From assembly GCA_036395115.1 (NCBI GenBank), contig DASWDU010000032.1:1-64000 (forward strand): a stretch of 64,000 bases of DNA. Reading direction: 5' to 3'. A program made the position numbers and the translations under genes. Source of the stretch: Thermoplasmata archaeon. Lineage in GTDB: Archaea > Thermoplasmatota > Thermoplasmata > RBG-16-68-12. Of this stretch, positions 2,479 through 8,011 are shown one piece after another; within the stretch, counting starts at the first letter, position 1; each line of letters opens with the position of its first letter. The notes under the pieces are model-generated. The model searched no databases, was not told where the DNA came from, and saw only the letters and a list, made by a program, of their open reading frames with translations.

Positions 2479-3495
2479 TCAGATGACCTTCTTCTTCAGG
2501 ACCTTCTTCACGCTGACCGCCGTCTTCTTCGCGCCCCGGTCGTCGTCCGATGCGATTCGGTGGCCGCACGCGTAGCACATGATGGCGTCGGACGAGATCA
2601 TCGTGCCGCATGCGGGACACGGGAGTTCCGACTCGCCCTCGGGCTCGACGGCGACCGCGGGCTTCGCGACCGGCTTGGCGGCGGGCGCGGCGGCAACGGG
2701 TGTCGCGGGCCTCGCGGCGGGTGGCGCCGAAGGCGTCTGCGCGACGGGTTGCGGCCGGAACCCTGGGGCGGGTGCGGGCTGCGCAGCGAGGGGCCTCGGA
2801 GCGGCACTGGGCGCGACGGCCGCCGGTCCAGCCACGGGGGCACGGGCAACCGCTTGTTCGTGCGCCAACAGCTGCTTCTCTTTCTCGATGAGGCGCTTCG
2901 CTTCCTCCGCGACCTTCCCCCGGGCGGATGCGATGTTGTCCTCTTCCGCCGCGAGTCGCTTCTCCCGGTCCATGAGTTCCCGGTTCCGGGCGATTTGTGC
3001 CTCGAGGGTCGCCTTCTGCTCTTCGAGGAGTTTCAGAATCTGCTCCTGCCGCGAGAGGATCTCGGCCTTTCGGGCCGCGACATCCCGAGCCTGGGCGGTT
3101 GCGTCCGCGTCGCGCCGGGCGATCTCTTCCTCGCGCTTCAGGTGCGACTCCAGGCGTTTCGCGAGCTCTTGCTCGCGCGAGACAATCTGGTTTTCCTTCG
3201 CGAGGACGTTCTGCCGCATCGCCTCGAACTCCTGATCGCGCTGGTCGATCGTCCGCTCCTTCTGTTCGACCTCCTTCTCCCGCGCGCGGAGGCCTTTTTC
3301 CCGTCCGACGATTGCGTCCCGTTCCTCCGCGAGGGCCGAGCGCTCCTGTTCGAGGGAACGGCGATCCTCCTCGAGCTTCGCGGACTGTTCCTGGAGGGCG
3401 GCTTCGCGCTCCTTGAACTCCGTGTCTCGGGACTTCAGGCTCTCGTCCAGTTTTTGCAGTGCGTCCAGCGCGTCTCGGATTGAATTCTCGGCCAT
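2479..3495 (-). CDS. Coiled-coil protein with C-terminal zinc ribbon
   Basis: The product is 338 aa. Residues 5-210 are an almost unbroken, highly charged heptad-like coiled coil rich in Glu, Lys, Arg and Gln, with recurrent 'REKE' and 'EQER' runs. A Pro/Ala-rich linker (about 215-290) leads to one zinc ribbon, CPACG...CYACG, and a Lys-rich tail ending KKVLKKKVI. There is no signal peptide or TM helix, so it is probably cytosolic. The start is the ATG at 3493-3495. It lies 71 bp downstream of the KaiC-like gene on the same strand and is probably co-transcribed with it. A structural or adaptor role is inferred from the architecture only. Confidence 0.75.
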   Translation of the reverse strand: MAENSIRDALDALQKLDESLKSRDTEFKEREAALQEQSAKLEEDRRSLEQERSALAEERDAIVGREKGLRAREKEVEQKERTIDQRDQEFEAMRQNVLAKENQIVSREQELAKRLESHLKREEEIARRDADATAQARDVAARKAEILSRQEQILKLLEEQKATLEAQIARNRELMDREKRLAAEEDNIASARGKVAEEAKRLIEKEKQLLAHEQAVARAPVAGPAAVAPSAAPRPLAAQPAPAPGFRPQPVAQTPSAPPAARPATPVAAAPAAKPVAKPAVAVEPEGESELPCPACGTMISSDAIMCYACGHRIASDDDRGAKKTAVSVKKVLKKKVI

Positions 3496-3566: not shown

Positions 3567-4325
3567 TCAGGATGCTCCTATCTCGAAAATCGGACCGAGG
3601 ACGGTCAGGCCGCCCTTGCGGACTTCGATTGCGTGCTTTTCCATGGAGTGGTCCGCGGATCGCATTTTCTCGACTTGCAAGTACCGCACGAGCTTCCCGC
3701 GCGAGCGGTCGAGCCCGAGCAACACGATGCCATCGACGAGGAACCCCTCGTTCCCGAGCAGCTGGCTCTCGCCGTTCGCGCTCCGCTCCATCACGACGAG
3801 CGACGTCAGATCGGCGTCGCGCAGCATCTTGAAGAAGTAGAACATCCGTCTCCGCATGTTCGTCGTGTTCTCCATGAGCGAGTACAGCGCTCCCAGGGAA
3901 TCGAGCGAGAAGAGCTTGAACTTGTGACCATGGACCTTGCGGTAGTGTCCGATCATCCGCTCGATGAACGCGAGGTAGTCCGTCTGGTCCTCCGGGCCGA
4001 CGACCGCATCGATCTCCCGAAGATCCGTGAAGTCGCTGATCTGCATGTTCATCGATAGCTCAACGCCGAGCGATTCCATGTTGCGGAGATGCGACTGGAC
4101 GGTCTCCTCGAGCGTCGTGTACAGCCCGAACTCGCCGGTGTCCTTGAGGTACCGCGACATGAGGGTGTAGCAGAACGATGTCTTCATCGACCCCGGCGGT
4201 CCGGTGACGAGAATGACCTTCGGTGGCGTGATCTCGGACCGGATCACCTTGTCCAGGCCATCGATTGAATTGCGAAACCCCATGAGCCCGCCGTCGATAT
4301 TCCATCGCACGGGGAGAGGGCTCAC
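3567..4325 (-). CDS. KaiC-like RecA-superfamily ATPase
   Basis: The product is 252 aa. The P-loop GPPGSMKTS is at residues 42-50, a Glu pair that fits the KaiC catalytic glutamates (TTLEETVQ) is at 73-74, and the Walker B Asp is at 142 (KLFSLDSL). The layout is that of single-domain archaeal KaiC-like (HTR-like) ATPases, which usually act in signalling and are often found with DUF835 proteins. The reading frame opens with GTG at 4323-4325, and an internal ATG before GFRNSIDGLD (about 4283) is an alternative start. It is divergent from the zinc-ribbon gene that follows and sits upstream of the coiled-coil gene. The specific partner is unknown. Confidence 0.8.
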   Translation of the reverse strand: MSPLPVRWNIDGGLMGFRNSIDGLDKVIRSEITPPKVILVTGPPGSMKTSFCYTLMSRYLKDTGEFGLYTTLEETVQSHLRNMESLGVELSMNMQISDFTDLREIDAVVGPEDQTDYLAFIERMIGHYRKVHGHKFKLFSLDSLGALYSLMENTTNMRRRMFYFFKMLRDADLTSLVVMERSANGESQLLGNEGFLVDGIVLLGLDRSRGKLVRYLQVEKMRSADHSMEKHAIEVRKGGLTVLGPIFEIGAS

Positions 4326-4506
4326 TTAATCGTTTTGCGCTGATTATCCACCTTGAGCACTTATCATTCTCTAAACTGAGTCCGGAAAGTCTTAGTACGA
4401 CGCTCAAGGATGGAAACGCGTCGACGATTCGAGGTGTCGGCTTACGCCACGCAAGGAAACGAAAGTCTGTCCCGTCTGTGACTCTCCCATCGACGCGGAC
4501 GCGCGC

Positions 4507-5934
4507 GTGTGTCCTTCGTGCCAGACCGACCTCACGCTGTTCGACCTCGGCGGCCAGACGTCCCACGAGACCGTCAACGTGGCGGAGAAGGACGGCCGGA
4601 GCATCGACGAGATTCTGGCCTCGATCATGGAGGGCAAGGAGGATCACCGGGAGATCTTCGAGACGCTGAAGAACGTCGCCCGGGAGAGCCCCGAGTCGGG
4701 CGAGGTCGTCACGGAGACGAAGGCCGTCCCGGGGTCGGAGGCGGGGAAGGACCTCGGCGAGCAATTCCTGTGCCCCGTGTGCGAGACGCTCGTCGCCGCG
4801 GATGCGACCGCGTGCCCCGGATGCGGTGCGGAATTCACCGAAGGGGAAGCGACGGAATACGAATGCCCTGTGTGCAGGGCCAGCGTGCCCTCCGACGCGG
4901 ATCGCTGCCCGAGCTGCGGGGTGCGTTTCGCGGAAACCGAGGCGGAGGCGGAACAACCGCAGCCGCAGGTGGAGGTCGCCCGACCTCCGCCCTTGCCCGT
5001 CGAGCCGGCTCGGCCCCCGCCCGCGGCTCCGGTGGCGGCAGCCGGTCGAGCCCCGGCCCGCCCGGCCCGCATCCCCCTGCAGAATCGTCTCGACAAACTG
5101 CGGCAGGCGCAGCGGGAGACGGATCGGAAGATCCCGTCCGGCGATCGCAAACTCCTGTACCGGGAACTTCCGAAGCTCGTGAACGAGGTGAAGCCCCTCC
5201 TCGTTTCCGCCAAGCGGATCGGGCTCGAAATCGACGACGGCAAGCGGATCATCAACGAGGCGATCCAGGCCGGGAAGGGCCGCGACATCGAGCGCGCGGT
5301 CACCCTGATCTCGGAAGCCCGAATGGCGTTGGATCTCGCCTTCGTCGAATTCATCGGCGGCCGGATCGATTCGTTCGTGCAGGAAATCCAGGTGGCGAAA
5401 GGGGACGCCGGGATGCAGCTTGCGATGCCGAAGCTTCAGGCGGCCGTCGGGCGACTCGAAGCGGGCGACTACGACGGTGCCTGGGACCAATACGAAGGCT
5501 CGCGCGGGACGTTCCGGACGGATGCGAAGGACTATACAGACGCCCGCACGATCATCGAGGAAGGCGACCGGCTCGCGCGCGATGCGCGCACGATGGGCAT
5601 CGAGGTCCGCGAAGCCGAACGGTTGCTCCGCCAAGGACGGGAGGCGATGGACCGGCGTGACGTCGCCGGCGCATCGCGCCTCGGGAGGGCGGCCCGCGAA
5701 CGGCTCCAACGGGATGTGCCTGCGTTCGTGCAGGAGGAGATGCGGAAGGCCCGGAACGCGCTTCTGGACCTGAAGATGAGAGGCGACGATCTCGGCAGTC
5801 CGATCAGCATCCTGAAGGAGGCGAGCGCCCTCGTCAAGCAGGAGTCGTGGGGCGAGGCCCTCGGGTACATCCGGGACTTCTACAAGGAGATCGAGCGCCG
5901 CGGAAAGTCAGGGCTCGTCACGCCGCCTCGATGA
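4507..5934 (+). CDS. Multi-zinc-ribbon helical protein (5' end unresolved)
   Basis: The protein has 475 aa from the first in-frame GTG. The frame opens with CPSC, but 13 codons upstream in the same frame lies CPVC, the other half of a zinc ribbon, so the true start must be further 5'. The frame is open back to a TAG at 4393-4395 yet has no ATG, GTG or TTG. An ATG at 4410 is in a different frame. A frameshift or assembly error near 4410-4460 is suspected. Two more ribbons follow (CPVC...CPGCG at about 88-105 and CPVC...CPSCG at about 120-138), then a Pro-rich linker and about 290 residues of helical sequence. The 3' end overlaps the convergent DnaA-like gene by 17 bp. Function unknown. Confidence 0.7.
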   Translation: MCPSCQTDLTLFDLGGQTSHETVNVAEKDGRSIDEILASIMEGKEDHREIFETLKNVARESPESGEVVTETKAVPGSEAGKDLGEQFLCPVCETLVAADATACPGCGAEFTEGEATEYECPVCRASVPSDADRCPSCGVRFAETEAEAEQPQPQVEVARPPPLPVEPARPPPAAPVAAAGRAPARPARIPLQNRLDKLRQAQRETDRKIPSGDRKLLYRELPKLVNEVKPLLVSAKRIGLEIDDGKRIINEAIQAGKGRDIERAVTLISEARMALDLAFVEFIGGRIDSFVQEIQVAKGDAGMQLAMPKLQAAVGRLEAGDYDGAWDQYEGSRGTFRTDAKDYTDARTIIEEGDRLARDARTMGIEVREAERLLRQGREAMDRRDVAGASRLGRAARERLQRDVPAFVQEEMRKARNALLDLKMRGDDLGSPISILKEASALVKQESWGEALGYIRDFYKEIERRGKSGLVTPPR

Positions 5935-8011
5935 CTTCCATTTCCCGCTCGAGTGTCTTCAGCTCCTGATCTCTCAGCGTCGCGGGCCCGAGGGAAATCA
6001 CGAAGGCGTAGTGGCTCTCGGAAACATTGTCCAGGAGCCTTCGGATGAACTTCAAGACGGCGTCGAACGAATTGTTTGAGACGAGATACTCGATCCCATC
6101 CAGCAGGACGGCACCGCGGGGGTTCTTCGACATGAAATCTTCGATCTCGTAGACGATTCGCTCCAGCGCGGGCGCGATCGTCTCCTCCGCAGACCCTTCC
6201 CGGTCCGTGAGCCAGAGGACCCGTCCTGCCGGCAGATCGAAGTTCTCCCGCAGCCGCTTCGGGTTCGTCCGGGTAATGACCAGGCCGCGGCTCCCGCCAC
6301 CGAGGAACCGAGCGAAGAGGCGAAAGGCCACCGCGGGTCGGTCCTCCTTTATCAGGTAGCTGCGGCCTGGTTGGAAATCGCGATCGGCATCGGCACGCGC
6401 CTTGGCCGGCGCCTTCGGTTCGACCGCGGGGAGCTCCGGCGCGGCCCCGGAGAGGACCTCGCGTGCGAGGTCCTGCGTGATCGGCCGTTCCATCACGGAT
6501 GAAAACGCGACGACCCGGTTGAACGCACCGCCGAGTTCCCGGACGTTGTTCTCCACCACGCTCGCGATGAAGCCGAGGATGTCCGAATCGATCGAGACCT
6601 TTGCATCGCGCGCCCGACGCTCGAGGATCTCGATCCGTGTGGCGAGCTCCGGCGGCTCGATGCCCGCGACGAGGCCCGACTCGAACCGCGACACGAGCCT
6701 CTCGTCGAGATTCGAGATCGCCTTCGGAGGGCGGTCGCTCGCCAGGACGATCTGTTTCTCCCGCTCGTGGAGGTCGTTGAACGTGTGGAAAATCTCCTCG
6801 TGGATTTCCGGCATGCCGCTGAGGAACTGGATGTCGTCGATCATGAGGCAGTCGAGGCCCCGCACGCGCTCCCGAAACGCGCCTAGGTCGCCCTGCACGC
6901 GGGCCTCTTCGAGGCTCGTCGCGAACGCCTCGCACGTCAGGTAGAGGACTTTCGAATTCTCGGAATGGGAGGCGATGTAGTTTCCGATCGCATGCAGGAG
7001 ATGGGTCTTGCCGAGCCCGGGGCCCGACGTGATGAGGAGCGGGTTGTACGCCTTCGCGGGGTTCTTCGCGACCGCGACAGCGGCCCCGTGTGCGAAGCGG
7101 TTGCTCTCCCCTTCCACGAAGGACTCGAACGTCGACGCGGGCACGAGGTTCGTGCCCTCTTCCCGGACGGGCGTCGGCTCCTCGAGAACGCGGACGATAT
7201 CCTCGGACCTTGGCTTGGACTCCGGAGGCAGGGCCTCGGCTTGACGCATCACGAACTCGAGCACTTTCTTCGTCCGTTCCGCCGATTCCCGCTCCCGGAG
7301 GAGTTCGAGCTCGCGGCGAGCCTCGATCCGGCGCATACCATCGATCGCATCCCGAAGGCCCTCGACTTCCGCATCGACGTCTGGATACCGGATCGGACTC
7401 CGGAGCTTGTCTCGGAGCAACGCGGCGCGGGACTCGAAACCGGTGACGTCGATCCGGTCCAGGATCTCTGACACCGCTTCGGACTTCTTGACCGCCTCGC
7501 GCATCGCGATGACGGACGCCGTGAGGACCGCCGGGTCCGATTCGAGGTTCGCCTCGACGGAGGAGACGTCGTACCCACCCTCCTGCCACGCGCGGACCTG
7601 CTTCTCGACCTCCGTGCTGCTCATCGCGTGGGGGACCTTCGTCCGCTTCACGACCTTCGAGGGCCTCTCGAGGACCGCATCCGCGTACTCCCGCACGAGG
7701 CCATCCATGTCCACGCGCGCGTGCAGCTCGAGGACGCAAGCGTCGTCGTAGGAGTCCTGCCAGACCTTCTTCAGGGCCGACCGTCCGCGATCCTGCCCCT
7801 CGCCGCGCTGGTAGAGGGTCGCCTCCGGGATGCCGCTGCGGAGCAGGACGATCCCTTCCGAGCGCCTCCCGCCCGACGACCGGACGGTCCGAACGTACCC
7901 GGAGAAGGAATACTTCTTAAGATCCAGGAGCAGCTGCTTCAGCGCATTCGGGCCGCCCCGCGTCGTCCGGATGAGTTTTCCCTCTGGCAGGAGGAGGTCC
8001 TGGGGCGTCAC
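5918..8011 (-). CDS. DnaA-type AAA+ ATPase fused to a DUF835-like domain
   Basis: The product is 697 aa from GTG at 8009-8011, with a TATA-like TTTTTAGA at 8050-8060. Residues 1-110 resemble a small alpha/beta sensor domain of PATAN/DUF4388 type. Residues 110-285 are charged and helical. Residues 288-520 match bacterial DnaA domain III closely: TFESFVEGESNRFAHGAA, Walker A GPGLGKTH (330-337), Walker B MIDDIQFL (D392, D393), sensor 1 ASDRPPK, the arginine-finger region LDERLVSRFE and sensor 2 NNVRELGGAFNR. DnaA domain IV, which binds DnaA boxes, is absent. Residues 548-690 resemble DUF835 (VLLDGIEYLV). It is therefore unlikely to be a classical initiator and more likely an AAA+ regulator or scaffold, perhaps working with the KaiC-like ATPase nearby. 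Domain names rest on motif recall. Confidence 0.85.
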   Translation of the reverse strand: MTPQDLLLPEGKLIRTTRGGPNALKQLLLDLKKYSFSGYVRTVRSSGGRRSEGIVLLRSGIPEATLYQRGEGQDRGRSALKKVWQDSYDDACVLELHARVDMDGLVREYADAVLERPSKVVKRTKVPHAMSSTEVEKQVRAWQEGGYDVSSVEANLESDPAVLTASVIAMREAVKKSEAVSEILDRIDVTGFESRAALLRDKLRSPIRYPDVDAEVEGLRDAIDGMRRIEARRELELLRERESAERTKKVLEFVMRQAEALPPESKPRSEDIVRVLEEPTPVREEGTNLVPASTFESFVEGESNRFAHGAAVAVAKNPAKAYNPLLITSGPGLGKTHLLHAIGNYIASHSENSKVLYLTCEAFATSLEEARVQGDLGAFRERVRGLDCLMIDDIQFLSGMPEIHEEIFHTFNDLHEREKQIVLASDRPPKAISNLDERLVSRFESGLVAGIEPPELATRIEILERRARDAKVSIDSDILGFIASVVENNVRELGGAFNRVVAFSSVMERPITQDLAREVLSGAAPELPAVEPKAPAKARADADRDFQPGRSYLIKEDRPAVAFRLFARFLGGGSRGLVITRTNPKRLRENFDLPAGRVLWLTDREGSAEETIAPALERIVYEIEDFMSKNPRGAVLLDGIEYLVSNNSFDAVLKFIRRLLDNVSESHYAFVISLGPATLRDQELKTLEREMEVIEAA

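Follow-up and report, generated by a model that had tools for sequence, protein, structure and literature searches.

What does an archaeon use a DnaA-type ATPase for? Replication is usually described as being initiated by DnaA in bacteria and by Orc1/Cdc6 in archaea. The question is raised by a gene in the window, i.e. the whole analyzed stretch of 64,000 nucleotides from contig DASWDU010000032.1 of a Thermoplasmata archaeon. The gene is located on the reverse strand (5918..8011, GTG start; stop codons interrupt the forward strand over the same span) and encodes a protein of 697 amino acids. The original prediction, made from the sequence, described a DnaA-type ATPase in which the DNA-binding domain IV is replaced by a DUF835-like domain, and profile searches bore this out. 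The Pfam model Bac_DnaA (PF00308) matched residues 292-449 (E 1.1e-58, 198.5 bits against a cut-off of 23), and the NCBIfam model DnaA (TIGR00362) matched residues 248-522 with 310 bits, which is below its equivalog cut-off of 343.9. DUF835 (PF05763) was found at the C terminus (residues 564-691, E 4.8e-28, 98.1 bits against a gathering score of 33.1), where it sits in the place of domain IV; no Pfam or NCBIfam model for DnaA domain IV or domain I matched the protein. All domain III motifs listed in the prediction (FAHGAA, GPGLGKTH, IDDIQFL, LDERLVSRFE and NVRELGGAFNR) are present within residues 288-520.

All domains of the protein are encoded on the reverse strand. An N-terminal mixed beta/alpha domain (residues ~1-110, 7682..8011) is followed by a helical linker (residues ~130-277, 7181..7624) that contains a W..xGYDV unit and a long helix. 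Next come the DnaA domain III AAA+ module (residues 288-520, 6452..7150) and DUF835 (5939..6322). The N-terminal domain had been labeled PATAN-like. Residues ~10-110 were indeed modeled as a confident mixed beta/alpha domain, but the label itself is unproven, as neither the window protein nor any of 12 aligned family members has a Pfam match in this domain and hhalign detected only a weak match of plausible register to the DUF4388/PATAN profile (PF14332; E 0.006, probability 6%, 39 columns).

AlphaFold was supplied with a 25-row alignment of the window protein, three named archaeal relatives and bacterial DnaA domain III sequences. The resulting model has a mean pLDDT of 85.9 and a pTM of 0.48, so that the single domains are confidently predicted and their mutual placement is not; the single-sequence model (pLDDT 42) was of no use. 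Foldseek placed the modeled AAA+ domain on Bacillus subtilis DnaA domain III as the top match (1.3 A, 52% identity over 232 columns, TM score normalized to target length 0.95), followed by other DnaA and Hda structures. B. subtilis DnaA is also the closest solved relative by sequence. Since the input alignment contained bacterial DnaA sequences, part of the structural match was to be anticipated. The window protein shares with bacterial DnaA (TIGR00362; B. subtilis 8bv3/8btg) the domain III fold, the ATP site, the arginine finger, sensor II and the initiator-specific-motif region. In contrast to DnaA, it lacks domain I and the DnaA-box-binding domain IV and adds the N-terminal, helical and DUF835 domains. 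The assignment as a DnaA domain III protein with DUF835 is made with very high confidence from profile matches and the predicted structure.

The placement of the ATPase relative to DnaA, Hda and IstB was analyzed in an 82-row tree, in which motif-based extraction left two Hda sequences unincluded. Within the DnaA domain III rows, the window protein grouped with relatives of the same order (support 98/86), while the Hda and IstB/DnaI rows were carried on very long branches apart from it. Membership in the IstB/DnaC/DnaI family was therefore rejected, and so was membership in Hda, for which the protein scored 99.7 bits against a TIGR03420 cut-off of 194.8. Hda resembles the protein in being a DnaA-related AAA+ protein without a DNA-binding domain, but differs by this far lower score, its remote branch and its other flanking domains. 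When the Hda and IstB outgroups were omitted, most archaeal rows were found on one side of the tree, L021-L023 being placed among bacterial rows. A strong DnaA match (TIGR00362, E 1e-30) was obtained in ten bacterial controls and in none of the named archaeal control genomes, to which the search of archaeal phyla other than the present one was confined; PF00308-only matches in some of these controls are for this reason considered weak AAA+ cross-matches. The proposed ancient transfer from bacteria is consequently the parsimonious reading, and DnaA domain III was probably acquired in this way. The tree contributes less to this point, as its backbone is unresolved and its power is reduced by the long branches and the shortness of the domain. 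As an alternative to several transfers, a single archaeal clade was neither shown nor rejected, with AU p values of 0.345 (all archaeal rows) and 0.329 (DUF835-type rows). A viral origin was rejected, as no relative was found in viral_contigs and phage matches were weak and DnaC-like, and no convincing PADLOC match pointed to a defence system.

The distribution of the family was surveyed in 390 genomes of the phylum, whose families were taken as 49. Many families of the class contained relatives that span the whole protein (30-47% identity). The layout of the window protein was shared by at least 14 of the phylum's families. Named relatives belong to Thermoplasmata and Methanomassiliicoccales archaea, and both Bac_DnaA and DUF835 are present in 12 of 12 aligned members. 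Because full-length relatives of the same layout recur across many independent genomes, chance or contamination was excluded. Further families carry DnaA domain III in other fusions, whose non-AAA+ parts were read by eye. One type of ~430 amino acids combines a coiled coil, the AAA+ domain and an acidic tail. In family f38 (L024 and L026), an FN3-like domain and an apparent transmembrane segment precede DnaA domain III, and these ATPases are possibly membrane-anchored. A very long coiled-coil form of 1407 amino acids (L023, L164:9975-14198) contains up to six W..xGYDV-type helical units before the AAA+ domain by a simple motif count, compared to one in the window protein.

Is the ATPase likely to be active? 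Within the AAA+ domain (6452..7150), all 24 DUF835-type rows share the Walker A residues K335/T336 and the Walker B residue D392. D393 and the sensor II arginine R491 are each conserved in 22 of these rows, and the arginine finger R442 in 21. The most diverged of these rows (L019 and L020, family f13) have lost both the arginine finger and the sensor II arginine, which suggests that their AAA+ domain is decaying or re-purposed. In four f8 genomes (L190, L191, L192 and L194), the gene between thiC and a zinc-ribbon gene encodes a protein of 335-356 amino acids with the N-terminal and DUF835 parts and without an AAA+ domain. Since the AAA+ form is widespread, loss is the simpler reading for these orthologues, an insertion elsewhere being formally compatible with the data. 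Such cases would fit a decaying or purely structural AAA+ remnant in a protein whose N-terminal and DUF835 domains do the signaling work. This explanation is assigned a low probability, as the ATP-site residues vary little or not at all in the remaining rows, the window protein included, and a remnant would not retain them.

The residues that contact single-stranded DNA behave differently. In B. subtilis DnaA, the R264A and I190A variants do not separate strands, replacement of I193 by alanine is one of the severe substitutions, and the DNA backbone is contacted by K222/E223 (PMC10721633). Sequence matching to this protein placed window R442 at the R264 position. In the initiator-specific-motif region (residues 365-406, 6794..6919), however, I190, I193 and K222 correspond to E368, R371 and M400. 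These positions are also changed in other members of the window's order (N, K, N in L003 and R, V, R in L005), whereas an I-[IVL]-[KR] pocket is retained in rows of f8, f11, f17 and f19. In this genome's order the AAA+ domain has thus probably lost the DnaA-style grip on single-stranded DNA. As several relatives keep the pocket, DNA binding may be ancestral and may still be in use elsewhere in the family.

These residues bear on whether the protein could serve its lineage as a replication initiator, be it accessory or alternative. An intact set of ATP-cycle residues in a DnaA domain III and the pocket kept in some relatives would be compatible with such a role. Yet the protein lacks domain I and the DnaA-box-binding domain IV, its pocket residues are changed, orthologues without AAA+ exist, no origin linkage was seen and the genome encodes two full Orc1/Cdc6 proteins, so that this role is very improbable. 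None of the family loci has an orc1/cdc6 gene nearby, a single weak match (L160) falling within the DnaA gene itself. Given the two Orc1/Cdc6 genes and the missing origin-binding and ssDNA-gripping features, the protein is probably not an initiator, as originally argued, and replication would still be started by Orc1/Cdc6. In bacteria, the DnaA relative Hda, which has no domain IV, acts on another AAA+ replication protein through contact between the AAA+ domains. A comparable regulator acting on Orc1/Cdc6 or another replication AAA+ protein could make use of the conserved arginine finger, and two potential Orc1/Cdc6 targets are present; the sub-threshold Hda score, the separate position in the tree and the lack of a neighboring orc1/cdc6 gene nevertheless make this doubtful, if less so than an initiator.

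The KaiC-like ATPase and zinc-ribbon proteins that had been noted near the gene are real and conserved among relatives. The convergent neighbor c1 (4507..5934, forward strand) encodes zinc ribbons and a helical region and stands beside the DnaA/DUF835 gene in many families, abutting or overlapping it with a gap of -17 to +94 bases at 13 loci. It was detected exclusively in genomes with a DnaA/DUF835 protein or an orthologue without AAA+ (27/27). The first CxxC of c1 is encoded upstream of the first in-frame ATG/GTG/TTG (window 4396-4507). No standard start is present in this frame back to the stop at 4393, and an ATG at 4410 is out of frame. The gene may use a non-standard start or contain a frameshift.

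Beyond c1 lie c2 (3567..4325, reverse strand), a KaiC-like ATPase with an intact P-loop (GPPGSMKTS; KaiC domain 117.6 bits against a cut-off of 26.6), and c3 (2479..3495, reverse strand), a coiled-coil and zinc-ribbon protein linked to c2 in relatives. The P-loop sequence GPPGSMKT is found in the window gene and in all orthologues except the one of L154 (GPPGSLKT). c2 co-occurs with DnaA domain III proteins: it was found in 36 of 40 genomes with DnaA domain III and in 32 of 350 others (Fisher 2e-27, although the co-occurrence partly follows phylogeny and the counts are not independent events). By family, the figures are 21 of 22 with DnaA domain III and one family without it, not corrected for shared ancestry. 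c2 adjoins c1 in f1, f2, f3, f16 and f20, with c3 next after c2 in all except f20.

Gyrase genes form part of this neighborhood in several families. The order c2 - gyrA - gyrB - thiC - DnaA/DUF835 gene was observed in genomes of f8, f10, f11, f12 and f19, with c3 past c2 where the fetched stretch reaches; gyrB-gyrA and thiC intervene in L150, L154, L155, L160, L033, L190 and L191. In these five families both gyrase genes map a few kilobases or less from the DnaA/DUF835 gene, as does gyrB alone in f18, while f17 has c3-c2-gyrA-gyrB together on another contig. Inteins were observed in gyrA of L154 (L154:14776-18513, Pfam) and in gyrB of L150 (L150:3684-6965, split match and insert). A survey of archaeal gyrases nowhere mentions DnaA (PMC9348778). 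One explanation for this arrangement is that the protein regulates chromosome topology or nucleoid state, with the DnaA-type ATPase binding DNA in part of the family and working with DNA gyrase. Besides the proximity of gyrBA, with c2 beside gyrA, and the f17 contig, it draws on the ssDNA pocket that gyrase-linked families often retain (e.g. SIIRKEE in L009 and L033). In the window's own genome, however, gyrBA is on a different contig and the pocket is changed. Where the genes are close, thiC intervenes, and the common gene order may reflect inheritance and not function. A topology regulator is hence considered unlikely, if the least unlikely of the alternatives.

The preferred reading, to which an even chance is given, is that of a switch that derives from DnaA, assembles in an ATP-dependent manner and belongs to a signaling module linked to KaiC, and not that of an initiator; here the identity of the protein is firm and the mechanism inferred. 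DUF835 has been described as an inactivated KaiC domain (iKaiC) found with receiver and PAS domains (PMC5847659). The window protein resembles these archaeal signaling proteins in carrying DUF835 as a C-terminal, output-like domain of a multidomain protein, but the partners there are receiver and PAS domains and DnaA is unmentioned. A profile comparison of DUF835 with the neighboring KaiC-like proteins detected no similarity. By analogy to DnaA, ATP binding would drive side-by-side assembly of the AAA+ domains, a step supported by the conserved arginine finger and sensor residues, and hydrolysis would reset the assembly. The N-terminal and DUF835 domains would serve as input and output ends that dock to partners, as the conservation of the module supports. 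The likeliest partners are the KaiC-like ATPase c2, via the KaiC-derived DUF835, and the zinc-ribbon and coiled-coil neighbors. Since the ssDNA grip was probably lost in this genome's order, the main role of the AAA+ domain there would be to switch assembly or to serve as a scaffold. The f8 orthologues that keep the N-terminal and DUF835 domains in the same slot are consistent with this switch; c2 not adjoining the gene in every genome counts against the KaiC-linked module.

The lineage-wide family, the changed ssDNA-gripping residues, the orthologues without AAA+ and the gyrase genes nearby in several families are new beyond the original prediction. No published description of such a protein was found in the literature searched, which leaves out most subscription journals. 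It is conceivable, with a probability just short of that of the topology regulator, that the family forms a KaiC-gated archaeal system in which a DnaA-derived ATPase, DNA-engaging in part of the family, makes the state of the chromosome respond to a signal that depends on ATP or on time. If true, this state would be gyrase supercoiling or replication timing, and the DnaA filament would have been re-used in archaea as a nucleoid regulator. In an archaeal lineage equipped with initiators of its own, a DnaA motor has been retained at about 50% identity to bacterial DnaA, now joined to sensor-type domains and accompanied in genome after genome by a KaiC-like ATPase. The family thereby offers a natural test of a DnaA ATPase freed from the origin, in which proteins with an intact pocket, with a changed pocket and with the AAA+ domain missing from the same slot can be compared.
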